In this document: in pieces, positions 19,041-51,981 of the stretch
Layout: each line of letters starts with the position of its first letter
Position numbering within the stretch: the stretch's first letter is position 1
NCBI RefSeq assembly: GCF_014695375.1
Contig: NZ_JACJOG010000009.1
Coordinates: 1 to 64,000, forward strand
Direction: 5' to 3'
Source of the DNA: Coleofasciculus sp. FACHB-T130
GTDB lineage: Bacteria; Cyanobacteriota; Cyanobacteriia; Cyanobacteriales; FACHB-T130
DNA: 64,000 nt
Translations under genes and position numbers: made by a program
Notes under the pieces: model-generated
Told to the model about the DNA's origin: nothing
Database searches by the model: none
The model's input: only the letters and a program-made list of their open reading frames with translations

Positions 19041-19163
19041 GAGCCTACCTATCGATAGATGTAGGTGGTGAGTCTTTTATAACAGATGGCTGCAAAAGTA
19101 ACGGATGCGATCGCTCTGTTTTTGCTATCATCCAGATTGCTCGTTGGAACCACTTGCATTAAG

Positions 19164-20570: not shown

Positions 20571-21188
20571 GATGGTTAGGCGACGATAACCCCTACAAGT
20601 ATCGCTACGCGGTAAGCGCAGCGTGCTGTAGGCTTTGGCACTTTTCCCACTATAGCTGCCTGTAAAAGCAGATGATGGGACATCGCTCCGACTCACTGGC
20701 GGCAGCGTCTCTAACAGCAATAGAAACTTCTTTCCTTAACTGAGTTCCCCAAAACCTGCCGAAGTTATCATCCTTAAAAGCACGGTGAGTTTATAGTTGA
20801 TACTGTAAAATCGGGTTTTCGAGCGATCGCGTCTTTTGTGAAATTTGTTTGTATTTAATGATACAAACCGATGAATTGATAGCGGGTTGCCGATATCTTT
20901 ACGAAAACTTTAAGAAGATTATCCGGGATATACATTTTCTTCACCTTATCTTGATGCTTTCTTCAAAAAAATTGCTTAAGATAAGTGTTTATACGGATAA
21001 ATTTTGCAAGTCTATTCTCTATCTACGGGTAGATGTTAGTGTACTTACGTAAGTAAAATCGGCTAATTCATCCCCCTAAAGGCTGAAAAAGTAAACTAAT
21101 GGATTGAAAAAGTACCTGACTTTTGTGGCTTAAGTAGAAAGCTGCGCTGATAACAAATAACTTTATAACGGCTCAGGAGCTGCTCTAT
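20571..21188. other. Non-coding stretch between the kinase and the GT2 gene
   Basis: About 620 bp with divergent flanking genes. It has a small palindrome (CTTACGTAAG, about 21044-21053) and AT-rich promoter-like sequence, plus an AGGAG ribosome binding site at 21174-21178 for the next gene. A 67-codon frame at 20849 is not convincing. Confidence 0.6.
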
Positions 21189-31969: not shown

Positions 31970-33313
31970 TTACAGAGAACCAAGACTACTTTGAGATTGC
32001 TGAAAGCGTTTTGAATTCTGCCATCGAGCAGCCAACAAGACTCCCAGTAGTAAGATGCCGCCGAAGAAGTAATGAGAGATAAACACCCTGGATACTAAAT
32101 AACTCAGAAATTGAGCATTTCCTGGTTTGAAGTAAGCCAGAGTATAGGTAACAGGCAACGATATCAATAAAATGCCTAATATTATTAGGCTAGACCAAAG
32201 CTGTTTATTAGGGACTGCTAATTTGTTGCCTAGATAGAGAGATAAAGGTAGTAGCAACAAGAGATAGTAGTGAGTCCAAGAGATAGGACTTGTAAGCAGT
32301 GCTAAACAAAGGACAACAGAAAGCTCTAAATTTTCTTCTTCTAATGTGACAGGTTTTTTTGAGCGCCAGCAAATCCAAATAGTCGCACCAAACAGCAGTG
32401 AGAGCAATGCGTACCGCACCAGTTTGAACCCCAATCCTACCTCTAGAGGCAGCCACTTAGTAAGACCACCGTCAGTTAGCAAACGAGCTAAGAAGCTATC
32501 AAGTGACTGACTGTTGTAGGCGGCGATTGGCTTTCCAGCGTAAGGCTGAATGCACATCTCAAACCAAGTCTGATGTAAATCGAAACCGAACAAAAGGATT
32601 GATGCTCCGACAATTGCCAGTAGCGCTGCACTAAACCCCGCCACTACTCGCCATCGACTTCTCATTACAAAGTAAACACCAAAAAGGAACAAGGGAATTT
32701 TAATCAAAGCAGCGATCGCTAAGAGCGCACCCGTCCAAATTTCGCGTTTAGCCTGGATGCAAAAAAAAGCTGCGATTAGCAACAACAAGACAAAATGAGT
32801 CGAATTTCCTTCTCGCAAATTGTAATAAAGAGGACCATTGATCGCAAATAGTCCGAGTAGGGCGATTTTTTGTTTTTCGGTTGTTAGTTCGCCTAGCTTG
32901 ATTAGTAAATAGTAAGTGAAGAGAATCGCAATGCCACTTAAAAACATCAGCAAAATGTGGGCATTTTGCTTACTTAACAATGAAAAAGGAGTAAATAAAT
33001 AGGCAATTATTGGAATATTTACAAAAGTCCCAGCCGGACAATCAGGTTGTCCTAAGCAATTTTTATCTGGTAGGTATAAATCTGGGGGATTTTCTAGTAC
33101 AAGACGACCCGCTGGGTAATAAGCTTTGTCAAAGTCAGCAAATAAATTTTGTGCAGGTGGATTAGAAATATTCCATAAAAATAGCATCATAAGTAAGACA
33201 GGGAATCCATAGCCTAACCATAAATTCCATTGCTTTTTTAAGTATTTATCAGCAAGGCTATTTAGCCCAACTGCCCCTAAGATTAAAAGAATGAAAATCA
33301 AGTAATTTTTCAT
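31970..33313 (-). CDS. GT87-like polytopic glycosyltransferase (DUF2029)
   Basis: A 447-residue integral membrane protein with about ten to eleven helices. The N-terminal periplasmic loop has the acidic FADFDKAYYPAGRLVLENPP region, and the helices include the family-typical LLIAAFFCIQAKREIWTGAL, ALIKIPLFLFGVYF and TSPISWTHYYLLLLLPLSLY. These are hallmarks of GT87/DUF2029 mannosyltransferase-like GT-C enzymes, which use polyprenyl-phosphate sugars as donors on the outer face of the membrane. Acceptor and sugar are unknown. It lies in the minus-strand polysaccharide locus, about 165 bp from the SDR gene. Confidence 0.8.
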   Translation of the reverse strand: MKNYLIFILLILGAVGLNSLADKYLKKQWNLWLGYGFPVLLMMLFLWNISNPPAQNLFADFDKAYYPAGRLVLENPPDLYLPDKNCLGQPDCPAGTFVNIPIIAYLFTPFSLLSKQNAHILLMFLSGIAILFTYYLLIKLGELTTEKQKIALLGLFAINGPLYYNLREGNSTHFVLLLLIAAFFCIQAKREIWTGALLAIAALIKIPLFLFGVYFVMRSRWRVVAGFSAALLAIVGASILLFGFDLHQTWFEMCIQPYAGKPIAAYNSQSLDSFLARLLTDGGLTKWLPLEVGLGFKLVRYALLSLLFGATIWICWRSKKPVTLEEENLELSVVLCLALLTSPISWTHYYLLLLLPLSLYLGNKLAVPNKQLWSSLIILGILLISLPVTYTLAYFKPGNAQFLSYLVSRVFISHYFFGGILLLGVLLAARWQNSKRFQQSQSSLGSL

Positions 33314-33477: not shown

Positions 33478-34203
33478 TTAAGCTTTTCTCAAAGGTCGAA
33501 TGTTGATGTCAGTTACTTCGGCGGTGCGGGGCAAACTGAGGGCATTGAGTACCACGGCGGCTACATCTTCTGGTTGCAGCAAGCGATCTGGCTGGTATTC
33601 TCGACCCTCTATCTCTTGAACCGATGCTTGCATGGGACTAGCGGTGCGTCCGGGGTAGATGCTGAGAACGCGCACGCCATCTGCGTTGACTTCTTCTCGC
33701 AGACTGTCAGCGATCGCCTTCAGTGCGTGCTTGGTTGCAGCATATTGTCCCACACCGCCTCTCGCATTCAAACCCACGGTCGAGTTGATGAACGCGATCT
33801 GACCCTGACGAAGTGCGATCGCACTGAGCAAAGCTTGTGTCAGCGCATAAGGAGCGCGAACATTGACGCGGTACTGCCAGTCAAAGTCTTCCAGGGAGGC
33901 GGTTTTCATGTGTCCTAAAGTGATGACACCAGCACTATGAACAAGCAGATCAACATCTCCTACATCTTGCTCAAGCCGAGTTTTTAGCTGCTGAATGTCT
34001 TCGTCTAGCGTCAGATCAACTTGATAAAGCAGAACTTTGGATGCAGTTGCTCTGGCAGTTTCGGCAACTGCCTCTAGAGCTTCTAAATTACGTCCCACTA
34101 GGCAAAGCGTTACTCCTTGCTCTGCCAAACCGAGAGCGATCGCTTTGCCAATTCCGCTACTCGCTCCCGTTACAACTGCAATTTTGTCTTTTAAGGTTGA
34201 CAT
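33478..34203 (-). CDS. Short-chain dehydrogenase/reductase
   Basis: A 241-residue classical SDR. It has the cofactor motif TGASSGIG (residues 13-20), a NAG-equivalent HSAG, and the active-site Ser plus YxxxK (NSTVGLNARGGVGQYAATK). It should be a soluble NAD(P)-dependent oxidoreductase with an unknown alcohol or ketone substrate. It lies 31 bp past the DUF4910 gene stop, on the same strand, within the polysaccharide locus. A role in sugar or precursor modification is possible, but SDRs are widespread and context is weak evidence. Confidence 0.88.
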   Translation of the reverse strand: MSTLKDKIAVVTGASSGIGKAIALGLAEQGVTLCLVGRNLEALEAVAETARATASKVLLYQVDLTLDEDIQQLKTRLEQDVGDVDLLVHSAGVITLGHMKTASLEDFDWQYRVNVRAPYALTQALLSAIALRQGQIAFINSTVGLNARGGVGQYAATKHALKAIADSLREEVNADGVRVLSIYPGRTASPMQASVQEIEGREYQPDRLLQPEDVAAVVLNALSLPRTAEVTDINIRPLRKA

Positions 34204-36871: not shown

Positions 36872-37420
36872 TTATGCCCCGACAAGAACATAAGAGCTGA
36901 ACAAAGGCCAGGATAAATCTTTTTCGGAAATTTCACTGACGGGTAAGGGCCATTCAATCCCCAGGATGGGGTCGTCATAGTGCAGCCCGCGCTCATACCC
37001 TGGTGTATAAAACTCGCTCATCTGATATACCACTTCGGCGTCATCGGTTAGGGTTTGGAAACCGTGGGCAAACATTTCAGGAATATACAGGGCACGCCGG
37101 TTTTCAGCGGTTAGTTCGATGCCAACATGACACAAATACGTGGGCGATTCTGGACGCATATCGACGATTGCATCGTATATGGCACCACGGGTACAGCGAA
37201 CTAATTTTGTTTCGCTGGCGGGGGCTGCTTGATAATGCATACCCCGCAACGTCCCTTTTTTGTAGTTCACGGATAGGTTGCATTGGGCAACGTTTGGCTT
37301 TAATCCACGATCTGCAAATTCATTGGCACAAAAAGTCCGAGCAAATAATCCTCGATTATCTTCTCGTTGCTCTATGTCAATAATAAAGGCACCCTTGAGT
37401 TTGGTTTCGGTGAATATCAT
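36872..37420 (-). CDS. RfbC-type dTDP-4-dehydrorhamnose 3,5-epimerase family protein
   Basis: A 182-residue cupin-fold sugar epimerase. The start (MIFTETKLKGAFIIDIEQRE) overlaps the stop of the preceding methyltransferase gene in an ATGA tetranucleotide. A longer frame would extend into that gene. Signatures are the catalytic RGMHYQ His, EFYTPGYERGLHYDDP with the Tyr, and the PEMFAHGF loop. Such enzymes epimerise C3 and/or C5 of 4-keto sugars. Since rfbF is nearby and no dTDP-sugar genes are seen, the substrate here may be a CDP-4-keto-hexose. Confidence 0.9.
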   Translation of the reverse strand: MIFTETKLKGAFIIDIEQREDNRGLFARTFCANEFADRGLKPNVAQCNLSVNYKKGTLRGMHYQAAPASETKLVRCTRGAIYDAIVDMRPESPTYLCHVGIELTAENRRALYIPEMFAHGFQTLTDDAEVVYQMSEFYTPGYERGLHYDDPILGIEWPLPVSEISEKDLSWPLFSSYVLVGA

Positions 37421-38658
37421 AGGTAAACTTGCACTTCTGGAATTGGGACTACAAATTTGCCTCCCCACTCTCGAATAAATGCCATCTGCTGCATAATTTC
37501 CTCTTTGAGGTTCCAAGGCAAAATTAGCAGGTAGTCAGGCTGTCTTTCGCGGATTTCGTCGGGGTTGAGGACGGGGATATGAGTGCCGGGTAGAAAGGTT
37601 CCTTGCTTGTGAGGGCTGCGATCTACCGTAAAATCAACAAAGTCTGTGCGAACTCCACAATAATTTAGGAGGGTATTGCCTTTGGCTGGGGCACCATACC
37701 CTGCGATCGCTTTCCCCTGTTGTTTCGCTTCAATCAAAAAAGTCAGTAGCTTGCGCTTGGTTTCTTTGACTTTTTCTCCAAAGGTCAGATAGGTGTCTAT
37801 CTTATCTAAGCCTGCCTGGGTTTCCTTGGATTTTAATTGATTGACGCGATCGCTCATGGCTGGCTCAGCCGCATTGTCATGCTTGCCGTAAATTCGCAGC
37901 GAACCGCCGTGAGTCGGGATTTCTTCGACATCAAATAAGGTCAAACCGTGAGCTGCAAAGATTTTTTCGACGGTTAAGAAGGAGAAGTAGGAAAAATGCT
38001 CATGATAAATTGTGTCAAACTGATTTTGCTGCATCAGCTGTAACAAATGGGGAAATTCCATTGTCAAGATGCCATCTGGCTTCAAGGCTATCTTCATTCC
38101 CGCTACAAAATCATTCACATCCGGAACGTGGGCGAGGACGTTGTTGCCCAACAACAGATTGGCTTGCTTCCCCTCTGCTGCCAGTTCCTTAGCTGTTTCC
38201 ACCCCAAAGAACTTGACTAAGCTGGGAATTCCTTTTTCCTCTGCGACTTTTGCTACATTTGCCGCTGGTTCGATTCCTAAAACCGGGATTCCCTTTTCAT
38301 GGAAATACTGCAACAGGTAGCCGTCATTACTAGCAATTTCAATGACTTGATGATTTTTGTCAAACCCAAACCTTTCTACCATCAAGTCCGTGTAAGCTTT
38401 GGCATGACGCAACCAACTGTCTGAGTAAGAAGAAAAGTAAGCGTAGTCTCCATCCCCAAAGATATGATCGGGAGATTCAAACTCTTCTAGCTGCACCAAA
38501 AGGCAACTTTCGCAAACATAGGCATGAAGTGGGTAACTTTTTTCTGCCCGACGCAGCTGTTCTGGTGTTAGGTAGTCATTGGCAATGGGTGACATCCCTA
38601 GATCGGCAAAGGTGTGCTCAAGGGATTTGCTGCAAAAACGACACTTAGCGATCGCCAT
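37417..38658 (-). CDS. NDP-hexose C-methyltransferase-like SAM-dependent enzyme
   Basis: A 413-residue enzyme of the sugar C-methyltransferase type (as for TDP-sugar C3-methyltransferases). An N-terminal zinc-binding domain has Cys6, Cys9 (CRFC), Cys49 and Cys52 (CESC). The SAM-binding core begins VIEIASNDGYLLQYF (about 105-119), and the C-terminal Rossmann-like domain contains IAGYGAPAKGNTLLNY. These enzymes add a branch methyl to a 4-keto sugar, which points to a branched-chain sugar. It overlaps its upstream epimerase gene by 14 bp and its downstream epimerase gene by 4 bp, indicating a tightly coupled operon. Confidence 0.9.
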   Translation of the reverse strand: MAIAKCRFCSKSLEHTFADLGMSPIANDYLTPEQLRRAEKSYPLHAYVCESCLLVQLEEFESPDHIFGDGDYAYFSSYSDSWLRHAKAYTDLMVERFGFDKNHQVIEIASNDGYLLQYFHEKGIPVLGIEPAANVAKVAEEKGIPSLVKFFGVETAKELAAEGKQANLLLGNNVLAHVPDVNDFVAGMKIALKPDGILTMEFPHLLQLMQQNQFDTIYHEHFSYFSFLTVEKIFAAHGLTLFDVEEIPTHGGSLRIYGKHDNAAEPAMSDRVNQLKSKETQAGLDKIDTYLTFGEKVKETKRKLLTFLIEAKQQGKAIAGYGAPAKGNTLLNYCGVRTDFVDFTVDRSPHKQGTFLPGTHIPVLNPDEIRERQPDYLLILPWNLKEEIMQQMAFIREWGGKFVVPIPEVQVYL

Positions 38659-39694
38659 GATTTAATAACTCCTTACTCCAGAAAAAATCTCGATCAATTT
38701 GTTGGGTGCGAATTAGGTACTCTAGCTGCTTCAAGCGAGTGAAACCTCGGAACAAGAAGATATCTTCAGTCATATCAATTTGCTTGAACAAATCGAATAA
38801 CTGCTGGGCACCCCGTCGGGCATCCCATTCACACTTAAATCCCGGTAGGGTTTTGTTAATTTTCTCGAAAGAAACTCGATAGCTGCGGTTGTCCGAACCG
38901 TTTTCTCCAAAAGTTAACTGGCATCCTTGGAAGACTGAGGCAATAATTTCCGCAATTTCTTTCACTCGATAGTTATGAGCGGTGTCTCCGACGTTGAAAA
39001 TTTGGTTGTGAACGATGTCACGGGGCGCTTCTAAGGTGCAGATAATTGCCTTACAGATATCAAGGGCGTGAACCAACGGACGCCAGGGAGTTCCGTCGCT
39101 GGTCATTTTGATTTCTTTCGTTGTCCAAGCTAAGCCCGCCAAGTTGTTTAAAACAATATCAAACCGCATTCTGGGAGATGCCCCAAAAGCAGTGGCATTT
39201 CGCAGAAAGGTCGGAGAAAAATCGTCATCGGCGAGTGGCTTGACATCTCTTTCTACGAAGGTTTTACATTCTGCATAAGCAGTTTGGGGGTTGACGGGAG
39301 ATTCTTCCGTCACATCATCTTTTGTGGCGACGCCGTAGACGCTGCAAGAAGACATATAAACGAAGCGCCGCACACCCGCTGCCTTCGCTAGATTGGCAAG
39401 GCGAACTGAACCTTTATGGTTAATGTCGTAGGTGATATTGGGTGAGAGTTGTCCGGCGGGATCGTTGGAAAGTTCTGCCATGTGAACAATTGCCTCGACC
39501 CCCTCTAAGTCTTCTGGTGTGATGTGCCGCAAATCTTTGTTGAGGGTTTTGGCAGTTAAATCGGTGGCGTTATACAGCCAACCTACTTTGTAGAAGCCGG
39601 TGTCTACCCCGATCGTTTCGTGTCCGCGTTTCATCAAAAGGGGGGCGAGTAACGAGCCAAGATAGCCTTCTGTTCCGGTTACTAATACTTTCAT
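38645..39694 (-). CDS. NAD-dependent epimerase/dehydratase
   Basis: A 349-residue extended SDR. It has the Rossmann motif GTEGYLGS (residues 7-14), active-site Ser116 region (YMSSCSVYG), and Tyr140/Lys144 (YAECK). It is probably a nucleotide-sugar 4-epimerase, dehydratase or 4-ketoreductase. CDP-glucose 4,6-dehydratase, expected next to rfbF, is a possibility but cannot be confirmed by eye. The C-terminal ~70 residues are specific to the subfamily. The end overlaps the methyltransferase gene by 14 bp. It belongs to the rfbF-lhgO-epimerase-methyltransferase-rfbC block. Confidence 0.88.
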   Translation of the reverse strand: MKVLVTGTEGYLGSLLAPLLMKRGHETIGVDTGFYKVGWLYNATDLTAKTLNKDLRHITPEDLEGVEAIVHMAELSNDPAGQLSPNITYDINHKGSVRLANLAKAAGVRRFVYMSSCSVYGVATKDDVTEESPVNPQTAYAECKTFVERDVKPLADDDFSPTFLRNATAFGASPRMRFDIVLNNLAGLAWTTKEIKMTSDGTPWRPLVHALDICKAIICTLEAPRDIVHNQIFNVGDTAHNYRVKEIAEIIASVFQGCQLTFGENGSDNRSYRVSFEKINKTLPGFKCEWDARRGAQQLFDLFKQIDMTEDIFLFRGFTRLKQLEYLIRTQQIDRDFFWSKELLNHGDR

Positions 39695-39705
39695 TCGTTC
39701 AATTC

Positions 39706-40920
39706 CTAAACGCTAACAGTTGTTTGTAGGGGTTGGGGTTCCGGAATTTGCTCTACGATTGCTTTGCCAATTTCCAGGGAAGAGGTAGCCGCGGGGGAAG
39801 GCGCATTGCAAACGTGGACGGAGCGATCGCCTTTGACAATTAAAAAGTCGTCCACTAACTTGCCATCGTTCATCAAAGCTTGAGCGCGAACCCCGGCGTG
39901 GGTGGGAATTAGGTCATCTGACTGCACTTCCGGAATCAGTCTTTGCAAGCTCCGCACAAAGGCGGCTTTACTGAAGGAGCGAATGATTTCCTGAATGCCT
40001 TCGTCGGCGTGTTTTGCCGCTAGTTTCCAAAAACCGGGATAGGTCATCACTTCAGCAAAATCTCGCAGATTAAAGTCTGTCTTTTTGTAGCCTTCACGCT
40101 TGAGGCTGAGAACGGCATTGGGTCCTGCGTGGACGCTTCCATCAATCATCCGGGTGAAGTGAACGCCCAGGAAAGGAAAATCTGGGTTAGGAACCGGATA
40201 AATCAGGGTTTTGACGAGATAGCGTTTTTCTGGCGTGAGTTCGTAGTATTCTCCCCGGAAAGGGACGATTTTCGCTTGTGGATCGACGTTTCCTAATTTG
40301 GCAACGCGATCGCTATGCAGTCCGGCACAATTGATGACAAAGCGCGTTTCAAACGTGCCGTTATTTGTCTCAAGTACCTGATTCTCCCCCGTTCCAACAA
40401 TTTTCTCAACTTTGGTATTGAGGCGAAGTTCTCCACCTTGGGCTTCAACTAGCTCAGCATATTTCCGAGCCACCTGCTTGTAATCGGCAATCCCGGTTGC
40501 GTACACCCGAATACCCGCGATACAGGCGACATGAGGTTCAATTTCTTTGACTTCCTCTGCACTAATCTTGCTAATTTTTAACCCATTTTCCAAGCCGCGT
40601 TGATAGAGGCTTTCTAATCGTGGCAGCTCTTTTTCCTCCGTTGCCACAATTACTTTGCCGCAGACTTCGTGTGCAATGCCATGCTCTCGGCAGAATTCTA
40701 CCATTGAGCGGCTTCCTTCTCGGCAAAATTTAGCTTTGAAACTTCCTGGTTTGTAATAAATGCCAGCGTGAATCACGCCACTATTATTGCCAGTTTGGTG
40801 ATAAGCCCACTGGCTCTCTTTTTCCAGCACCACTATACGGGCAGAGGGATAGCGTTTGCCCAAAGCCATTGCTGTAGAAAGTCCAACAATCCCGCCGCCA
40901 ATAATTGCAAAATCATACAT
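39706..40920 (-). CDS. lhgO: L-2-hydroxyglutarate oxidase-like FAD enzyme
   Basis: A 404-residue FAD-dependent oxidase of the LhgO group. The N-terminal FAD motif is FAIIGGGIVGLSTAMALGKR, with HQTGNNSGVIHAGIYYKPGS as the family-typical substrate-side signature and VRAQALMNDGKLVDDF near the C-terminus. The known reaction is L-2-hydroxyglutarate to 2-oxoglutarate, membrane-associated. In this operon, 11 bp upstream of the epimerase gene, it could instead oxidise a hydroxy-acid or sugar, or supply 2-oxoglutarate for the dioxygenase encoded nearby. The orthology call is good; the role in the cluster is inference. Confidence 0.88.
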   Translation of the reverse strand: MYDFAIIGGGIVGLSTAMALGKRYPSARIVVLEKESQWAYHQTGNNSGVIHAGIYYKPGSFKAKFCREGSRSMVEFCREHGIAHEVCGKVIVATEEKELPRLESLYQRGLENGLKISKISAEEVKEIEPHVACIAGIRVYATGIADYKQVARKYAELVEAQGGELRLNTKVEKIVGTGENQVLETNNGTFETRFVINCAGLHSDRVAKLGNVDPQAKIVPFRGEYYELTPEKRYLVKTLIYPVPNPDFPFLGVHFTRMIDGSVHAGPNAVLSLKREGYKKTDFNLRDFAEVMTYPGFWKLAAKHADEGIQEIIRSFSKAAFVRSLQRLIPEVQSDDLIPTHAGVRAQALMNDGKLVDDFLIVKGDRSVHVCNAPSPAATSSLEIGKAIVEQIPEPQPLQTTVSV

Positions 40921-40973
40921 AAGAGTTCTTGCCCCTGCAACTGAAATGGATGAGTGTTTATCCTAAAAATTTG

Positions 40974-41747
40974 TTACCAAACTTTCCAAGGAGCATTCCC
41001 ACTCTTCCAAAGTTCTTCTAGGTAGTTCTTATCTCGTAAAGTATCCATTGGTTGCCAAAAACCAGGATGTCTGTAAGCAGCCAGATGTCCATCTTGAGAT
41101 AATTTTTTCAGGGGTTCTTGCTCCCAAATTGTGGAGTCATCTTCAATATAATCAATGACTTCCGGCTCTAGAACAAAGTAACCCCCATTAATCCAAGCAC
41201 CATCCCCTTCAGGCTTCTCCCGAAAAGTGGTAATTTTATGTTGATCGGGTTCTAAAGAAATCGCTCCAAAACGTCCCGGTGGCTGAGTTGCAGTCAAGGT
41301 TGCCAAACACTTTTGCTCTCGATGAAAGTCTATTAGCTCTTGAATATTGACATTCGCTACGCCATCTCCATAAGTAAAGCAAAAGGTTTGATTCCCAATA
41401 TGCTCTCTAACTCGCTTTAAGCGTCCTCCGGTCATCGTTTGATCTCCGGTATCTACCAACGTGACTCGCCAGGGTTCGGCATAGCCACAATGCACATTCA
41501 TTTGGTTAAACCGCATATCAAACGTGACATCGGACATATGTAAGAAGTAGTTGGCAAAATACTCCTTAATTACGTAGCCTTTATAACCACAGCAGATAAT
41601 GAAATCGTTGATTCCATAAGCTGCGTAAATTTTCATAATATGCCACAGCACAGGTCGTCCACCAATTTCCACCATCGGCTTTGGTTTGATTGTGGTTTCT
41701 TCCGTGAGTCGAGTTCCAAGGCCTCCAGCCAGTATCACTGCTTTCAT
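40974..41747 (-). CDS. rfbF: Glucose-1-phosphate cytidylyltransferase
   Basis: A 257-residue nucleotidyltransferase that makes CDP-glucose from CTP and glucose-1-phosphate. It has the signature [20 protein letters not shown] at the N-terminus, [11 protein letters not shown] for metal binding, and PPGRFGAI and [13 protein letters not shown] typical of RfbF. Length is the usual 257. It opens the sugar-nucleotide block and sits 53 bp upstream of lhgO on the same strand. Together with the epimerases and the C-methyltransferase it implies a CDP-linked deoxy or branched sugar. A decayed second copy lies near 44225-44321. Confidence 0.95.
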
Positions 41748-42055: not shown

Positions 42056-42415
42056 CTATGTTATTGAAGACAATCTGCCAAAAGCGATCGCGCAAATTCC
42101 ACTGAGCATCAATCCCACTCCCACCCAATCAACCGGAGAAACTTTCTCCCTGAGAATAACTGCTCCGGCAATCGTCGTTGCTACCACCGTTAAGCCAATC
42201 ACCACTGGATAAGCAACTGATAAATTAAACTTCCCCAAAACTAAAATATAGAAAACTGTACTGAGACCATAAACTAAAATCCCACCCAGCAAGTAAAGAT
42301 TTAAGGGATTTTGACCGGCTCCCAATTTTAACAATGTTTGTGCGAGAGTATTTAAGCCAACGGTCAGCAAGATTAAAAAAGGAAATAGAAGATTAGCTAA
42401 CATAAACAACGACAC
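42056..42415 (-). CDS. Small four-helix EamA/SMR-type transporter protein
   Basis: A 119-residue membrane protein with four transmembrane helices (about 8-24, 38-57, 65-86, 94-114). It contains LNTLAQTLLKLGAGQ and ILREKVSPVDWVGVGLMLSG, typical of the EamA/SMR drug-metabolite transporter superfamily, including ArnE/F-like undecaprenyl-phosphate-sugar flippase subunits. In this locus, next to the decaprenyl-phosphate phosphoribosyltransferase homologue, a flippase role for a polyprenyl-linked sugar is attractive but not shown. Such proteins work as dimers. It is 33 bp downstream of the YqeG-like gene. Confidence 0.82.
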   Translation of the reverse strand: MSLFMLANLLFPFLILLTVGLNTLAQTLLKLGAGQNPLNLYLLGGILVYGLSTVFYILVLGKFNLSVAYPVVIGLTVVATTIAGAVILREKVSPVDWVGVGLMLSGICAIAFGRLSSIT

Positions 42416-42448
42416 TTTCTTGGATATTCAGCTTGCTTAAGCCATCGC

Positions 42449-43033
42449 TTAATAAAAAGAATCAAAATCCCAAAGCTCGCGGTCGTTAGGCCACGGTGTT
42501 TGGACTCGTTTTCCCAGGAGTTTTTCCCACCATCGAAAGGGATGAGGAAGCGTGGCAACTTGGATGCTCGCACAGCCGCTTAGCCATGCCCCTAACACAT
42601 CTGTATGACGGCTATCACCAATAACGACAACTTGTTTTGGTTTAAGCCGCATATATTTGATGGCTTTACGGAAGGCAAAAGGAAAGGGTTTCTTGGCTGG
42701 GTTGATTGCTGGAATCTCTAGACGATGGGACCAAGCCTTTACCCGATACCGGCGCTTGCCATTCGAGAGAATGAAAAATTGAAATCCTTGTAATTTTGCC
42801 TGTTCGATCCAAGCTTCGGCACCAGGAGACACGTAGCGATCGTCTTCAGAAACAATGGTGTTGTCTAAATCGATAATAATCCCTTGAATTCCGCAAAGCT
42901 TTAGCCAGTCAAGCTCTATGGCTGCCAAGCTGTACGCCTCTCTCGGAAAACTGTAAGGCCCCTGGTTGACAGCCGGTTTTTTAGATTTTTGTTTAACAGA
43001 GCGGGAAAAGAACAGAGACACTCGGTTTAACAT
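42449..43033 (-). CDS. YqeG family HAD IIIA-type phosphatase
   Basis: A 194-residue HAD-superfamily phosphatase. Motif I is IIIDLDNTIVS, motif II is ILSNG, motif III is a Lys in NPAKKPF, and motif IV is VVIGDSRHTDVLGA. YqeG members are usually annotated as phosphatases of uncertain physiological substrate, some acting on phosphatidylglycerophosphate or phospho-sugars. It sits between the phosphoribosyltransferase and the transporter genes and might dephosphorylate the 5-phosphoribosyl-lipid product, as required in the known decaprenyl-phosphoryl-ribose pathway. That link is inference. Confidence 0.88.
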   Translation of the reverse strand: MLNRVSLFFSRSVKQKSKKPAVNQGPYSFPREAYSLAAIELDWLKLCGIQGIIIDLDNTIVSEDDRYVSPGAEAWIEQAKLQGFQFFILSNGKRRYRVKAWSHRLEIPAINPAKKPFPFAFRKAIKYMRLKPKQVVVIGDSRHTDVLGAWLSGCASIQVATLPHPFRWWEKLLGKRVQTPWPNDRELWDFDSFY

Positions 43034-43050
43034 TTGGTCATTTCACTCAC

Positions 43051-43080
43051 AGCCACAACAAGTTCAGCCACAACAAGTTC
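43051..43080. repeat. Two direct copies of a 15-bp word
   Basis: AGCCACAACAAGTTC occurs at 43051-43065 and 43066-43080, in the short gap between the phosphoribosyltransferase and YqeG-like genes. Confidence 0.85.
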
Positions 43081-43100
43081 AGAGACTAACAACTCAAAAA

Positions 43101-44081
43101 TTACTCGATTAGCCCTTGACGTTTCAGGAATAGAATGACAAAGCTGGTAACGATCCAAGAGAGTACCGTCAGGAGAATCGGCACGTCTTTTAATAAAATT
43201 TCCTCCGGACGCTCAGTCTGTCCTCCTTCGTCATCGATATCGCTTCTCCGAGCGATTTCTTGCGGATCGCTCAGTAGCTGATAGCGGAAAACCCCGTATA
43301 CAACAAAGGGTAATGTAAGTAACATCCAAGGTGTTGATGCTCCACGAACTTGAGGTCCGGAACTCCAGATCGCGTAGGTCATGACTGCGCCGGTTGTCAC
43401 TGTATTTTCCATGCGGCTGAGTAGAGGCAACGAGTAGCGCTTCAATACAGACCGGGTCTTGCCACCTCTAATTGACAATAGCCGCAGTTCTGCTTTGCGC
43501 TTTTCCACACCCAGAAACAAAGCCAGCATAGCAGTACACAGGAGAAACCAGGGGGATAAAACAATGTTTGTTGCAGCAGCACCTGCATAGGCTCGCAAGA
43601 CAAAACCCATTGCGATCGCAATAATATCCAAAATCACAGTCCGCTTCAGCCGCAGGTTGTAGGCAATTTGCAGCAGTGCGTATGCGGTGATGGTTGCTCC
43701 CAAGTAGGGCGATCGCAACCAGCCGACAATTAAACCAGTACCCAGCAAACAGACTGCCATTACCATCGCCACTGGTACGCTGACTAAGCCTGCGGCAATG
43801 GGTCGCTTACTCTTGACTGGATGTAGACGGTCAGCTTCTACATCTGCAATGTCATTGAGTAGATAGAAGCTACTCGAAGTCAAACAGAACAAAGCAAACG
43901 CCAGTAAAGAGCCTAGCAAAGATTCCAGATTAATACTGAAAGCAAACAAGGGCGCTGCAAAAACAATCAGATTTTTTGTCCACTGGCGTGGTCTTAAAGC
44001 TTTAATATAAGGAAATTTTATAGAATTATCAGCTAGCTTAGTTGAATTTTGTTTATCACTAGGAAATCCGGGAATTTTCAT
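43101..44081 (-). CDS. UbiA-family decaprenyl-phosphate phosphoribosyltransferase homologue
   Basis: A 326-residue polytopic prenyltransferase-like protein with eight to nine helices. It carries the Asp-rich NDIADVEADRLHP motif (residues 76-88) and a second Asp-containing loop around 180-200, as in UbiA-superfamily DPPR synthases. These enzymes transfer 5-phosphoribose from PRPP to decaprenyl phosphate. In mycobacteria the product leads to the arabinofuranosyl donor. In this locus it suggests a furanosyl or ribosyl donor for the GT-C enzymes encoded nearby. The N-terminal 25 residues are polar and Lys/Ser-rich. Confidence 0.85.
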   Translation of the reverse strand: MKIPGFPSDKQNSTKLADNSIKFPYIKALRPRQWTKNLIVFAAPLFAFSINLESLLGSLLAFALFCLTSSSFYLLNDIADVEADRLHPVKSKRPIAAGLVSVPVAMVMAVCLLGTGLIVGWLRSPYLGATITAYALLQIAYNLRLKRTVILDIIAIAMGFVLRAYAGAAATNIVLSPWFLLCTAMLALFLGVEKRKAELRLLSIRGGKTRSVLKRYSLPLLSRMENTVTTGAVMTYAIWSSGPQVRGASTPWMLLTLPFVVYGVFRYQLLSDPQEIARRSDIDDEGGQTERPEEILLKDVPILLTVLSWIVTSFVILFLKRQGLIE

Positions 44082-44645: not shown

Positions 44646-46061
44646 CTACTCAATAGCTACGTTATTTTGAGGGTTATCGTTACCCTCATTTATCTCATAT
44701 TTCGTACCCCTTAAAATGTATAGACATACTAAAACCATTAAACCGCCAGCCAGTAAATAAGACAGAAAAATGTTTAGGGGGAGAAAAGCTATTTTTTTGT
44801 ACGCTAAATCCTTAGCGATCGCAAAATAATTACTGGTTAAGAAATAACTTATAGCCAGGAAATAAATCGTAAACTTTCCTAATACTTTTTTGGTTAATAA
44901 ATAAGGAAGTAAAAAAGCATAAATTGGCAAAAGAATCCCATAATGATGTTCCCAAGCAATTGGAGAAGCAATTGTGGAGGTTAATGCAATAATAGAGAAA
45001 TCCGTGATACTTCCTTTCTCACTCGTTAGCATTGGCAAGAATAGAGCTGCTGAAATTAAAGCGATTGAACTTAGTACTGTTCCCAAGTAAACCCAAGGGT
45101 TATAGGGCGGGAAAGAATTATGATTAAAGTTAAGAATGGGATCGTTAAATAACCATCTATTTAAAACACCATTAATTGATTGGTTTGTAAAAAAAGTTTC
45201 GCCGTGCTTGGAAATAAATGATAATACGCTTAAGTAGTTAACATGATCTGCAAAGCCAATTAAGGATATTGAAACTATCAATCCAAGCGAGCTTGTGGCG
45301 ATAAATCCCAGAGTAAAGCTCCATTGCTTACGCAAAATTCCCCATATCAAAATCAGAGCATACTGGGGCTTAATCAGGCACATTATTCCTCCTAAAATGC
45401 CTGCGATTTTTTTCCTATCTGTCATCCAACACCAAAAAAGCACAGCAAACAAAGCATTAAGCCAACACTGAATCTGCCCTAATGTATAGGCTTTCACTAC
45501 CGGGTAAAAACTCAAACTTAAACAAACTAGGAAAAAATTGATAGCAATTCGCTCGAATCTCGGTATTGCTCCGTTTTCTTTCCATTTGTGCTTTTTTAAA
45601 CTTAAATTAAATATTTGAATAACAAAAAAAATCGTTAGGATAATAAAATTCCATGAAATAAATTTTAAAGTATTAAATATAGATAATCCAATATTTCTTA
45701 GAAATCCCTCAACTACATTTATTTTTAGAAAATAGAAGACCAGCAGAGAGGTAGGGGGATACTGAAATTTTGTTTGTTCTTCAAAAAAAACCTTAGAGTA
45801 TAATAATTGCTGATGCTCGGATTGAATATAGTTGAACGCTTCTAGCATGGGTTCCCATGAATCATTGATGGTTCGCCCGTACCGCAAGAAGATTTCAGTT
45901 CTAGATAATCCTAGGTCTTTCCACTCTGTAGAAAACAGGGTTATTAATATAAAATTAACGACGACAACATTAGCAAACGTAAAGAGCAAGAGGTTTCGAG
46001 TTAAAGGATTTAATCTTCGCCAATAGTTCAGTAAATTGACTAAAATAAGCGAAAAATACAT
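44646..46061 (-). CDS. GT87-like polytopic glycosyltransferase
   Basis: A 471-residue integral membrane protein with about ten helices. The first extracytoplasmic loop is acidic, and later segments LIKPQYALILIWGILRKQW and IASPIAWEHHYGILLPIYAF match conserved GT87/DUF2029 features, so a GT-C glycosyltransferase using a polyprenyl-phosphate donor is likely. A related protein is encoded at 31970-33313. The soluble C-terminal tail is short and acidic (EINEGNDNPQNNVAIE). Donor and acceptor are unknown. It is the third of the multi-pass genes in this part of the polysaccharide locus. Confidence 0.75.
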   Translation of the reverse strand: MYFSLILVNLLNYWRRLNPLTRNLLLFTFANVVVVNFILITLFSTEWKDLGLSRTEIFLRYGRTINDSWEPMLEAFNYIQSEHQQLLYSKVFFEEQTKFQYPPTSLLVFYFLKINVVEGFLRNIGLSIFNTLKFISWNFIILTIFFVIQIFNLSLKKHKWKENGAIPRFERIAINFFLVCLSLSFYPVVKAYTLGQIQCWLNALFAVLFWCWMTDRKKIAGILGGIMCLIKPQYALILIWGILRKQWSFTLGFIATSSLGLIVSISLIGFADHVNYLSVLSFISKHGETFFTNQSINGVLNRWLFNDPILNFNHNSFPPYNPWVYLGTVLSSIALISAALFLPMLTSEKGSITDFSIIALTSTIASPIAWEHHYGILLPIYAFLLPYLLTKKVLGKFTIYFLAISYFLTSNYFAIAKDLAYKKIAFLPLNIFLSYLLAGGLMVLVCLYILRGTKYEINEGNDNPQNNVAIE

Positions 46062-46209
46062 ATGCTTCTTCTATACTCCTTGATTAGATTTGAATTTGAG
46101 ATTTTTGTTAGTTCGCTTTTTTAGCCCTATCAACTCCTTTAATCAGTTCAAGCTAGCTTACGGCAAATTCGCAATACTTAAACATGCCCTATCTTGACTA
46201 CGAAACTCG

Positions 46210-47514
46210 TTATACTTTGTTCAAGCTTAAATTTGATTGTTGATACAAGGAAACTAACGTGTCAACGAATTGTGCATTGTTTAAAAGTTGGGTGATTACA
46301 AACAGTAATAACAAGGCATTTAATACTTTTGAGCTAATCCCTTCTGCATGACTATAGAATTTTAGAGAAAGAGCCACCCAACTCAATACTAAAAAAGTCC
46401 AATTCGGAGTAAACAAGAACAGCTCATAGTCTTTTCCATAAATATTATGTAGTAAAAAATTAAATAAAATACAAAAAATTAAACTCCTCATTATCGGCAT
46501 TTTATCGGCGCGAAACTTAATAAAGGCATAAAGACTCCAAAGGAGTAAAACTGTCCACAGCAAAAAAGCGATAATGCCTGGTATGTAAAGTGCTGTAATA
46601 GATGGAGGATCGAAGTTCACCCAAGGTGCAGGTGCAGAATTAAGTTTTACCCAAGAAGGTGGGTTATCTTCAATAGTTCTCCATATATGCGGCTTAATGG
46701 CAATAAAATTGAATATAAAAATATATCCTAGCAATTTTAGGATTCTCGAAAAAATACTGCTAGATTGAGCGGGCAAATTTACATAATCTCCCTCTTTAGA
46801 GTAATAACTTCCTGGAATAAAAAATAGATCGACACTTGGATATATCAACTTCTGCAAGAGGTTCAAAGCAATAGCACCAGACAAAACTAACCCGATGAAA
46901 ATAATCAGTTTTGTAAAAACTTTTTTATTAAAGCTACCCTGATAGATGCTGAAAAAATAGGCAATAATCCCCTGCACTACGTTACTTATTACCATGCCGA
47001 GCGCAAAAATAGTTGCTGGAACCATGTAGATTAAGCTGCCTGGGTAAGCAACTGCCAGCAAATAAATAATAATCAGACTACAGGCAGCGAAAATAAACGT
47101 ATCGGGAACCGAACTGAAAAATATATGAGATGTAGATAATCCTAAGATAGCCGAGTAGAGAATGGCGTGAAAAGGCTTAAACCCCAGTTTTTGGAAAAAA
47201 ACTAAGGTTAAAACAACGCAAACAGCTCCAAAAAAGGTACTAAATAGTATGCCAACAATTTCCCCAGAACCAATTATTTTTTTGAGTAAAAATCCTAGAG
47301 GATTAAAGACAAGAATAAATAAAGGATGAGTATGAGTGCGCCAAAAATTAATTTTATACGTGGTTAGTTGAGTAATAACTCGATGATAATCTGAATGAAA
47401 TAGTAAGTCGGAACGCTTGACTCCAAGTACTCCGGTAAAAAAAAGAGACAAACTGGAGAAAAGGTAAAGTATCCAAAAGGTTAGAAATGTTCCAACTCTA
47501 ATTCTTGAAAACAT
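46210..47514 (-). CDS. Polytopic membrane protein, probable GT-C glycosyltransferase
   Basis: A 434-residue protein with about eleven predicted helices. The first loop after helix 1 contains acidic and basic residues (FHSDYHRVITQLTTYKINFW, then RTHTHPLFIL) reminiscent of the acidic catalytic loop of GT-C enzymes. A conserved DTFIF motif and the C-terminal YGKDYELFLFTPNWTF region resemble the ArnT/PMT-like fold. No specific family is recognised. It lies 40 bp downstream of the GT2 gene, so an enzyme finishing a lipid-linked oligosaccharide is plausible. Confidence 0.55.
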   Translation of the reverse strand: MFSRIRVGTFLTFWILYLFSSLSLFFTGVLGVKRSDLLFHSDYHRVITQLTTYKINFWRTHTHPLFILVFNPLGFLLKKIIGSGEIVGILFSTFFGAVCVVLTLVFFQKLGFKPFHAILYSAILGLSTSHIFFSSVPDTFIFAACSLIIIYLLAVAYPGSLIYMVPATIFALGMVISNVVQGIIAYFFSIYQGSFNKKVFTKLIIFIGLVLSGAIALNLLQKLIYPSVDLFFIPGSYYSKEGDYVNLPAQSSSIFSRILKLLGYIFIFNFIAIKPHIWRTIEDNPPSWVKLNSAPAPWVNFDPPSITALYIPGIIAFLLWTVLLLWSLYAFIKFRADKMPIMRSLIFCILFNFLLHNIYGKDYELFLFTPNWTFLVLSWVALSLKFYSHAEGISSKVLNALLLLFVITQLLNNAQFVDTLVSLYQQSNLSLNKV

Positions 47515-49850: not shown

Positions 49851-50828
49851 CTAATTTTTCCCCGTTAGAAATTTCATTTGCATACTTTTTTTCAAAAAAT
49901 AAAATGGACTCACTAAACTGCTCAAGAAAAATTCCATTTCGCAAGCAGCAACCAGGTCAGTTTTTAACTTACCTCTATATTTAATTAGTTGAAGAATGGC
50001 TCTACGCAGGTTTCCTAAAAGGATTCTGGTAATAATAATTGGCTTTTGCCAATTATTAGCATTAATCATGCGTAGCTGACAAATACTTAAGCCTACCCCT
50101 CGAATCAGGGTTATTAAGTAATCTTTCTCTAGCCGCCACTTGGGAATTTGATGATAAATACACATTTCGGGGTTGTACCAAATTTCCCAACCAGCGCGTC
50201 CGATGTAGAGTAGCGCTTCAAAATCTTCTCCTTTGGCTGCCAAGGATGACCCAACTGGTCCCTGAAGAACAAGTTGAGCGGGAACGTTGTCTAGCCACAC
50301 TTGCTTTTGGACAACTAATCCGGCTCCTGGAGGAAGGCTTAAATTCTCCGGGTCGTATAGATTAGGTTTTGAACCTCTTTCTTTCAGTGCCAAAAAAGAT
50401 TGAATTCTTTCAAAGTTTTCTGGCGGATAAACTTCAAATTCGCCTTTTATCTGACCTCCAAAAGCACCTGCTTTTGGATGAGATTTCCCGAAGGAGTAGG
50501 CTGCTGCTACCCAATTTGGGTTCGGAAAATTATCATCATCCAAAAAACCAATAAAAGTACCTCTTGCTTCCTTAATGGCGCGTAATCTTGCAAACACTGC
50601 GCCTTGCTGTGGCTCAAAGTAATACATGAGCGGATATGCTTGAGGCCAGTTAGATTGATATTCTTGAATGATTTTGGCGGTGTTGTCAGTGCTATTGTTA
50701 TCGACGACAACCACTTCCCAAGAAATCTGCTCGGTGCCTACCTGCGATCGCAATCGCTCCAAAACGGCTGGTAGAAGCTTTTCCCCGTTGTAAGTGCGAA
50801 TTGCTACAGTAAAGTCTACCTTAGACAT
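49851..50828 (-). CDS. HpsE-like GT2 glycosyltransferase (copy 1)
   Basis: A 325-residue GT2 of the type called hormogonium polysaccharide biosynthesis protein HpsE. It has the N-terminus DFTVAIRTYNGEKLLPAVLE, VVDNNSTDNTAKII, the metal-binding FLDDDNFPNPNW and the characteristic LSLPPGAGLVVQK and GWEIWYNPEMCIYHQIPKW motifs. HpsE is needed for the extracellular polysaccharide used in gliding of filamentous cyanobacteria. The sequence is 125 bp downstream of a close paralogue. It probably acts in assembly of that polysaccharide or of a related glycan. Confidence 0.88.
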   Translation of the reverse strand: MSKVDFTVAIRTYNGEKLLPAVLERLRSQVGTEQISWEVVVVDNNSTDNTAKIIQEYQSNWPQAYPLMYYFEPQQGAVFARLRAIKEARGTFIGFLDDDNFPNPNWVAAAYSFGKSHPKAGAFGGQIKGEFEVYPPENFERIQSFLALKERGSKPNLYDPENLSLPPGAGLVVQKQVWLDNVPAQLVLQGPVGSSLAAKGEDFEALLYIGRAGWEIWYNPEMCIYHQIPKWRLEKDYLITLIRGVGLSICQLRMINANNWQKPIIITRILLGNLRRAILQLIKYRGKLKTDLVAACEMEFFLSSLVSPFYFLKKSMQMKFLTGKN

Positions 50829-50952
50829 ATCTATAAGCCCAGCCCTGATTGGGGTTCAGAAGTTGCCTTCAGAGTAGCCGTGGATTGAGCTAGCGTCAAC
50901 CCCCACGGCTAATTGTTGTCTCCAGTCCAATTTTAAATTTAACCAACCTTTC

Positions 50953-51981
50953 TTATGGGGCAGTAGATACTTTGCGATCTACCAGTCCCGGTAAAGAATT
51001 AATGTCTTCTCTCAAGCCAAATATTTTAGCTTGTCCAAGTTCTAAGTATTTATTTTTGAAAAGGAAAAAGGGACTAATCAAGCTAGATAACAGTAGTTCC
51101 CGCTCGCAAGCCGCAATCAAATCTCTTTGATCTCCTCGATATTTAATCAGATGGAGCATTAGTCTGCGGAGATCGTTGAGCAGGTAAGCTGGAAAAGCTA
51201 CAGGTCTTTGCCAGTTCTTCAGACCGAGCATCCGTATGTGGTACCGACTTAAACCCACGCAACGGATGAGAGAAATTAGGTAATCTTTTTCCAATCGCCA
51301 GCGGGGAATTTGATGGTAAACACGCATTTCGGGATTGTACCAGATTTCCCAACCCGCGCGCTGAATATGCAATGTGGCTTCCAAATCTTCGCTGGCTAAC
51401 TTAGCTTCTCTCCCCTTGTGATTGAGGACGAGGCGCTTAGGCACGTTCGCAAGCCAAGCTTGCTTGCGAACCACTAATCCTGCCCCTGGAGGCAGGATCT
51501 TCTTGCGTGGTTCGTAAAGGCTGGCTTCCGCACCTCGATCCACTAATGCCAAGAAACAAGCAATTTTTTTAAAATTTTCAGGTGGCTCGATTTCAAAATT
51601 TCCTTGGATTTGGCTACCGTAGGCACCCGCTTCTGGATGCGCTTGACCGAAGGCATAAGCAGCAGCAACCCAGTTAGAGTCAGGCAGATTGTCATCATCT
51701 AAAAAGCCAATTAAAGTGCCTCTGGCTTCTTCAACAGCCCGTTGGCGAGCAAATGCAGCTCCTTGCTCAACTTCCAACGTGTAGTGTAGCGGAGCAACTT
51801 CTGACCAGTTGGCTTGATATTCTTGAACAATTTTTGCGGTTTTGTCGGTGCTGTTGTTATCAACAACAATAATTTCCCACGAAAAGTGTTCGGTGTTGAT
51901 CTGCTCTCTGAGTCGATCGAGAACTTCGGGTAAACGCTTTTCACTATTAAAGGTGGGAATGGCTACTGTAACGTCAACCAT
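50953..51981 (-). CDS. HpsE-like GT2 glycosyltransferase (copy 2)
   Basis: A 342-residue paralogue of the preceding gene product, with the same N-terminal DVTVAIPTFNSEKRLPEVLD, VVDNNSTDKTAKIV, GFLDDDNLPDSNW, ILPPGAGLVVRK and GWEIWYNPEMRVYHQIPRW motifs. The C-terminal ~25 residues are extra. The two copies probably differ in acceptor or donor. It is the first gene of the polysaccharide locus on the minus strand. The ~900 bp upstream should hold its promoter and possibly regulatory sites. Confidence 0.88.
   Translation of the reverse strand: MVDVTVAIPTFNSEKRLPEVLDRLREQINTEHFSWEIIVVDNNSTDKTAKIVQEYQANWSEVAPLHYTLEVEQGAAFARQRAVEEARGTLIGFLDDDNLPDSNWVAAAYAFGQAHPEAGAYGSQIQGNFEIEPPENFKKIACFLALVDRGAEASLYEPRKKILPPGAGLVVRKQAWLANVPKRLVLNHKGREAKLASEDLEATLHIQRAGWEIWYNPEMRVYHQIPRWRLEKDYLISLIRCVGLSRYHIRMLGLKNWQRPVAFPAYLLNDLRRLMLHLIKYRGDQRDLIAACERELLLSSLISPFFLFKNKYLELGQAKIFGLREDINSLPGLVDRKVSTAP

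Follow-up and report, generated by a model that had tools for sequence, protein, structure and literature searches.

The closest published system to the genes considered here is the three-component pentofuranose pathway described in 2024 from Citrobacter youngae O1/O2, with the open reading frames (ORFs) ORF15, ORF14 and ORF12 (PMC11127046; statements on this paper refer to part of its text). There, a UbiA-type polyprenyl-phosphoribose synthase dependent on phosphoribosyl pyrophosphate (PRPP) acts with a HAD phosphatase, a flippase and a GT-C glycosyltransferase; its product is undecaprenyl-phosphoryl-ribofuranose, and separate epimerases alter the sugar (PMC11127046). Here we describe a related three-gene cassette on the minus strand, at 42056-44081, of a 64,000-nucleotide stretch from the cyanobacterium Coleofasciculus sp. 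FACHB-T130 (contig NZ_JACJOG010000009.1, positions 1 to 64,000; hereafter the window), whose genome comprises 6.2 Mb in 60 contigs. From homology, conserved residues and gene order, it is likely that the cassette produces a lipid-linked ribofuranose donor and exports it, and that GT-C enzymes encoded at 44646-47514 use this donor.

In all four roles, assigned here from homology and fold, and in the predicted product, the cyanobacterial genes resemble those of Citrobacter. The differences lie in the parts. The Citrobacter HAD domain forms one polypeptide with the synthase and carries a helical cap, whereas that of Coleofasciculus is a separate protein of the YqeG class with a cap-less model; the flippase proposed there is a MATE protein, whereas the candidate here is the adjoining SMR/EamA protein (a comparison that covers the adjacent protein, not the whole genome); and the Citrobacter GT-C enzyme belongs to GT136, whereas the candidates here belong to GT87 and an unclassified family, so that the GT-C family probably differs (PMC11127046). 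Because the cassette has neither the fused HAD nor the MATE flippase, we call the cassette a variant of the Citrobacter logic. The word cyanobacteria is absent from the main text of that paper (PMC11127046), and no account of this cassette was found among the papers listed in searches of the open-licence literature.

The synthase of the mycobacterial decaprenyl-phosphoryl-arabinose pathway (Rv3806c, Rv3807c, DprE1/E2, Rv3789, Emb/Aft) is homologous and has identical catalytic residues, and there too GT-C enzymes use the product. The actinobacterial parallel drawn in a preliminary description of the stretch holds in function but not gene for gene, as Rv3807c is unrelated to HAD-family phosphatases; Rv3789 is an SMR-family exporter (Kelly et al., PMC11127046). 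In contrast to mycobacteria, the phosphatase here is of another superfamily, no DprE1/DprE2 was found in the genome, and the predicted sugar is ribose. A likeness to the Arn system is also seen, in that the flippase candidate is nearest to ArnE (of ArnE/ArnF) and one GT-C fold resembles ArnT. In the Arn system the sugar, 4-amino-4-deoxy-L-arabinose, comes from other enzymes and the flippase has two SMR subunits, whereas there is one SMR gene here. The cytoplasmic PRPP-dependent ribofuranosyltransferases of the gPRT-PRP type likewise obtain ribofuranose from PRPP with a HAD phosphatase, but their cytoplasmic reaction uses the glycan itself as substrate, with no lipid donor involved (PMC11127046).

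The three genes are separated, in the minus-strand order UbiA, HAD, SMR, by 67 bp and then 33 bp:

43101..44081, minus strand: UbiA-family polyprenyl-phosphate 5-phosphoribosyltransferase, like decaprenyl-phosphoryl-phosphoribose (DPPR) synthase; 326 amino acids; assigned from NF008978, Rv3806c (8j8j) and conserved residues
42449..43033, minus strand: YqeG-class HAD-IIIA phosphatase, predicted polyprenyl-phosphoribose 5'-phosphatase; 194 amino acids; assigned from TIGR01668, conserved residues, clade and fold model
42056..42415, minus strand: SMR/EamA small membrane protein, predicted polyprenyl-phosphate-ribose flippase; 119 amino acids, GTG start; assigned from PF00893

The preliminary description had placed a DPPR-synthase homologue, a HAD phosphatase and a small EamA/SMR protein side by side, and family models confirm this arrangement at 44081-42056 on the minus strand. 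The UbiA protein matches Pfam UbiA, exceeds the cut-off of the NCBIfam decaprenyl-phosphate phosphoribosyltransferase model NF008978 (254.9 bits vs 207) and matches Mycobacterium tuberculosis Rv3806c (PDB 8j8j) at E 5.5e-46. When aligned to 8j8j, it has the NDxxDxxxD loop and the R/E residues of loop IV, and N76, D77, D80 and D84 together with K194, R195 and E198 are invariant in nine homologues. These are the counterparts of the loop II and loop IV residues mutated in Citrobacter ORF15, where the equivalent N/D residues matter most and the R366A and E369A variants stayed active (Kelly et al. 2024, PMC11127046). The protein is predicted to convert PRPP and polyprenyl phosphate to polyprenyl-phosphate-ribose-5-phosphate. 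The SMR protein exceeds the Pfam cut-off of PF00893 (31.0 vs 23.7); its nearest NCBIfam model is ArnE (NF011625), at 42.4 bits and under the cut-off of 92, and a sequence search of the PDB gave no match.

The grouping of the three genes is widespread among related synthases. Of 194 genomes surveyed across the phylum, 105 had at least one match to the synthase family at E 0.001, and 11 had one above the curated cut-off. When 388 genomes of the class were searched with a profile built on nine relatives, 67 matched at 1e-30. Neighbourhoods of 66 loci were compared, together with the window, by tblastn, and 56 loci have a UbiA protein at least 50% identical to that of the window (related genomes do not count as independent, some loci end at contig borders and some contigs are short). 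The surroundings left out were those in genomes G230, G259, G275, G302, G308, G326, G355 and G436 and a fragment in G407:C105, and eleven strong matches of the phylum survey (L023, L025, L027-L035) were left out at length; all of these scored below the 56 counted loci against the profile or family. A HAD gene lies within 1.5 kb of UbiA in 38 of the 56 loci and an SMR gene within 2.5 kb in 40, on the same strand in every case (38/38 and 40/40). Both stand beside UbiA in 35/56 loci; the families that come next in frequency are found in 9 to 11 of 56.

A second survey, of 192 genomes, found the synthase at 1e-60 in 37 (40 matches), and among the 26 loci newly examined, with 1.5 kb flanks, HAD was present in 26/26 and SMR in 19/26. 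Named records, taken as the best 80 of 505 and overlapping the earlier loci, so not an independent sample, include 28 with a UbiA protein at least 60% identical, 22 of these with HAD and 18 with SMR. The closest synthases among them are from cyanobacteria, e.g. Coleofasciculus, Nostoc and Anabaena, and the cassette is present in named Nostoc and Anabaena records. The window genome encodes five other UbiA proteins, whose loci hold no relative of the cassette HAD or SMR within flanks of ~1.5 kb. Chance adjacency of the three genes is rejected by these lone UbiA loci and by the locus counts (35/56 with both neighbours, 26/26 with HAD).

The HAD protein matches Pfam HAD/PGP_phosphatase and exceeds the cut-off of the NCBIfam YqeG model TIGR01668 (168.4 bits vs 89.1), and its residues D55, D57, K115 and D140 are shared by all 13 cassette HADs that were aligned. 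Its AlphaFold model (mean predicted local distance difference test score, pLDDT, 84.3) has no cap insertion, as read from the predicted secondary structure. Foldseek places an uncharacterised Listeria protein first among the matches of the model, and the sugar-phosphate phosphatases GmhB and YrbI also appear, with TM-scores near 0.5. A phylogeny of YqeG proteins, 37 from cassettes and 22 housekeeping ones, splits the two groups into separate clades with support 100/100 (37 of the 38 cassette HADs were used, as L127 yielded no ORF with the motif, and the 22 housekeeping proteins are those with loci located). The nucleophile motif is DLDNT[IVL][IV][ST]E in the cassette HADs, and the 22 housekeeping sequences have DVD[ED]T[LI] instead. 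Of 30 genomes chosen for a count of YqeG copies, the 19 with two copies all have the cassette, whereas none of the 11 with a single copy has a cassette HAD. By clade, motif and copy number, the HAD protein is dedicated to the cassette and stands apart from housekeeping YqeG.

Phosphatases of other HAD classes accompany the synthase elsewhere, consistent with a 5'-phosphatase being required in each case. Where the YqeG-type HAD is absent, a HAD-IB protein lies near UbiA in L142 (by Pfam and NCBIfam) and in L146 and L196 (by tblastn only). A HAD-UbiA fusion occurs in L043 (Pfam), and putative fusions in L048 and L049 are judged by length and N-terminal motif only. In Paenibacillus, the genes for UbiA, HAD-IB, two EamA halves and a polytopic DUF6080 protein follow one another in locus L241. 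Together with L251 and L260 of the same genus, where small membrane proteins and a polytopic protein likewise come after UbiA and HAD-IB, this locus represents a Firmicutes form of the cassette; the EamA halves are Pfam-confirmed in L241 only.

The sugar carried by the lipid would depend on DprE1 and DprE2, and the preliminary description, which allowed for ribose or arabinose, suggested looking for this pair elsewhere in the genome. A cyanobacterial DprE1 profile, built from seven top-scoring genomes, was run against nine genomes outside the profile as control, because the seven seed genomes provide no independent control. The controls scored 449.7 to 754.9 bits; the best match in the window genome was 41.8 bits, with none at 1e-30, and the window genome also has no match to PF04030, which we take to be the C-terminal domain of DprE1. 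For DprE2, the window genome reached at most 88.2 bits, against 170.8 to 395.0 for four controls that had not contributed to the profile. Neither enzyme was therefore found, both scores lying far below the controls. Across the genomes with HAD cassettes, DprE1 is lacking in 37/38, the window genome included (six have weak matches only and 31 none at 1e-30, some assemblies being incomplete; the exception, G060, carries DprE1 at a locus apart from its cassette), and the DprE2 profile was negative in the eight of the 38 in which it was tried (best 95.4 bits). Among the 56 loci, DprE1/DprE2 lie within 7 kb in 0/38 with HAD vs 10/18 without it (Fisher p 1.2e-6, which treats related genomes as independent and is no real probability), and none was seen within the stretch examined in the 28 named records with closely related UbiA proteins. 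As DprE1 and DprE2 are missing, the lipid sugar should stay ribose, and the predicted lipid is probably polyprenyl-phosphoryl-ribofuranose. Homology, catalytic residues, gene order and the recurrence of GT-C genes thus favour the ribose lipid of the preliminary description, and its arabinose alternative is not upheld.

In picocyanobacteria a different arrangement was observed, the synthase occurring with DprE1 and DprE2 homologues in L209-L212, L220 and L221 (Synechococcus, Cyanobium and Prochlorococcus; tblastn), which suggests an arabinofuranose lipid there.

Three genes in the window are candidates for the enzymes that would use the lipid donor, the first two upstream of the cassette:

44646..46061, minus strand: GT87-family GT-C glycosyltransferase, candidate ribofuranosyltransferase; PF09594 62.7 bits, cut-off 25
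46210..47514, minus strand: polytopic GT-C-fold protein, candidate ribofuranosyltransferase; 434 amino acids, no Pfam family, assigned from a fold model
31970..33313, minus strand: second GT87-like protein, possible further member; 8.7 kb away, with homologues beside the cassette elsewhere

The GT87 protein at 44646-46061 has a homologue (43%) adjacent to UbiA and SMR in L142 and a fragmented one (55-57%; L110:6683-7301) between the HAD and SMR genes of L110. Relatives of the 46210-47514 protein (22-46% identity) lie near the cassette in L037, L039, L041, L044, L111, L117, L133, L137, L142 and others, so that L142 has relatives of both GT-C genes beside UbiA, SMR and HAD-IB. In an alignment of 13 sequences, D42 and H63 of the 46210-47514 protein are invariant. 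Its AlphaFold model (mean pLDDT 80.4) aligns with the GT-C enzymes ALG12 (Z 24.0), ArnT (19.3), AftB (18.8) and AftD (18.4), these high Z values coming from the second alignment only, as Foldseek gave no match under 0.001 (best 1.2e-3). The modelled fold shows the enzyme class, not the sugar used. Sequence searches of the PDB gave no match for this protein (by profile) or for the GT87 protein at 44646-46061, while the GT87-like protein at 31970-33313 matches the mannosyltransferase PimE (E 0.0034) and has homologues beside the cassette in L041 (53%) and L182 (54%). The suggestion that a nearby GT-C enzyme uses the product is supported by the recurrence of relatives of both neighbours with the cassette, and the proteins at 44646-46061 and 46210-47514 are likely candidates for the ribosyltransferases.

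In the pathway that we infer, from the catalytic steps and the flipping through to the acceptor and the glycosidic linkage, the UbiA protein would couple PRPP with polyprenyl phosphate, and the YqeG-class HAD would take off the 5'-phosphate of the resulting polyprenyl-phosphate-ribose-5-phosphate to leave polyprenyl-phosphoryl-ribofuranose. This lipid would be flipped to the periplasmic side by the SMR protein, which probably works as a dimer, and there one or both of the GT-C enzymes at 44646-47514 may attach the ribofuranose, probably in the form of a side group, to a surface glycan.

Other readings concern the sugar. DprE1 and DprE2 encoded elsewhere could convert the lipid to polyprenyl-phosphate-arabinofuranose, as in mycobacteria. 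Close UbiA relatives in other cyanobacteria are indeed linked to DprE1/DprE2 homologues, and for the pair in L038 the NCBIfam DprE1 model ranks first at 474 bits, just under its cut-off of 500, and the DprE2 model second at 198.7 bits, under its cut-off of 250. The window genome, however, gave neither protein in the PF04030, DprE1-profile and DprE2-profile searches, by which the arabinose branch is rejected; nearly all HAD-cassette genomes lack DprE1, and the SDR (short-chain dehydrogenase/reductase) protein at 33478-34203 fits a generic SDR model, with DprE2 not among the best 25 of its 218 matches, so that this conversion is extremely improbable. Alternatively, the ribose lipid might be converted to xylofuranose through epimerisation at C3 by an SDR protein, for which the GalE-like product of 38645-39694 is the nearest candidate. 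This conversion is carried out in Citrobacter O2 by ORF13, a GalE-like SDR (PMC11127046), and the Coleofasciculus gene lies on the cassette strand, its product matching GalE at 93.6 bits, below the cut-off of 262.3. Its place among nucleotide-sugar genes, including those for a glucose-1-phosphate cytidylyltransferase and a dTDP (deoxythymidine diphosphate)-sugar epimerase, explains it better, however, and the commonest extended-SDR group near the cassette reaches 9/56 loci (a count in which clustering may split related epimerases), and we regard epimerisation as quite unlikely.

The phosphatase and the acceptor also admit other explanations. The HAD protein exceeds the cut-offs of both TIGR01668 and PF09419, the mitochondrial phosphatidylglycerophosphate (PGP) phosphatase family, of which Gep4 is presumably the type member. 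PGP is the substrate of Gep4-type proteins (PMC5897459, as far as the parts of that source drawn on here go), and the HAD could be a second PGP phosphatase whose position is unrelated to the synthase, another protein being the phosphatase of the synthase. Set against this are the separate clade and nucleophile motif of the cassette HADs, the confinement of the second YqeG copy to cassette genomes among the 30 chosen, and the same-strand linkage to UbiA in 38/56 loci; we consider it very unlikely, and the copy counts and the clade likewise speak against an ordinary PGP phosphatase. A somewhat better case, though still an unlikely one, can be made for a ribose lipid whose acceptor is a protein (e.g. 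pilin) or a lipid, with the neighbouring GT-C genes serving another glycan. A synthase of the same family has been proposed for the arabinofuranosylation of Pseudomonas pilin (PMC11127046), and in several genomes the cassette lies, by eye, amid genes unlike polysaccharide genes, but against this L142 has relatives of both GT-C genes with UbiA, SMR and a HAD phosphatase.

Several observations weigh against the proposal that the cassette makes a ribofuranosyl donor for the neighbouring GT-C enzymes. As the cassette HAD also scores in PF09419, its substrate is uncertain. The GalE-like epimerase gene, 2.4 kb downstream of the cassette, could change the sugar, and genome G060 has a YqeG-type cassette and a separate DprE1/E2 locus. 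SMR is absent beside 3/38 HAD loci and was unseen in the short flanks of 7/26 further loci, and 8/56 loci have neither a nearby HAD nor DprE1/E2; two of these eight have HAD-IB, and the other six lack an explanation, although L130 at least is truncated at a contig border. The GT-C neighbours vary between genomes, and by a crude hydropathy rule a same-strand polytopic ORF lies within 6 kb in 40/56 loci and is absent in 16.

Beside these points, the separate locus of G060 (L043:6361-10899) was seen to combine a HAD-UbiA fusion with DprE1 and DprE2. A protein of ~225 amino acids lies near the cassette in loci where SMR was undetected (L195:7754-8428, L196:6952-7650, L197:3073-3762, with a similar ORF in L146); it is a methyltransferase by Pfam in L195 and L196, the others being judged by eye. 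The GalE-like gene belongs to a nucleotide-sugar gene set at 36872-41747 on the minus strand:

40974-41747, minus strand: glucose-1-phosphate cytidylyltransferase
39706-40920, minus strand: flavin adenine dinucleotide (FAD) protein of the L-2-hydroxyglutarate oxidase family, an odd member of the set
38645-39694, minus strand: GalE-like SDR, below the GalE cut-off
37417-38658, minus strand: probable methyltransferase, by eye
within 36872-41747, minus strand: dTDP-sugar 3,5-epimerase

Elsewhere in the window, two adjacent look-alike glycosyltransferases are encoded at 49851-51981, the first of which matches HpsE (hormogonium polysaccharide) at 496 bits, and at 17052-20720 two adjacent proteins resemble, by eye, protein kinases with pentapeptide-type repeats.

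Heteroglycans of Nostoc are described as bearing pendant groups of D-ribofuranose (PMC5635763, in the part of the paper drawn on), and we offer as a hypothesis that the cassette is linked to them. In this tentative picture, which we regard as possible but doubtful, the cassette would be the machinery that adds ribofuranose side groups to extracellular heteroglycans of cyanobacteria such as Nostoc, its YqeG phosphatase would have been recruited from phospholipid synthesis, and the presence of HAD or of DprE1/DprE2 beside the synthase would set ribose or arabinose. If true, the lipid-linked pentofuranose strategy demonstrated in Citrobacter in 2024 would also exist in cyanobacteria, where it would employ another class of HAD and another family of flippase, and there would be a gene handle on the ribofuranose of their released polysaccharides. 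Because DprE1/DprE2 are absent beside the HAD cassette, the arrangement also suggests a simple genomic predictor of ribose vs arabinose in surface sugars.

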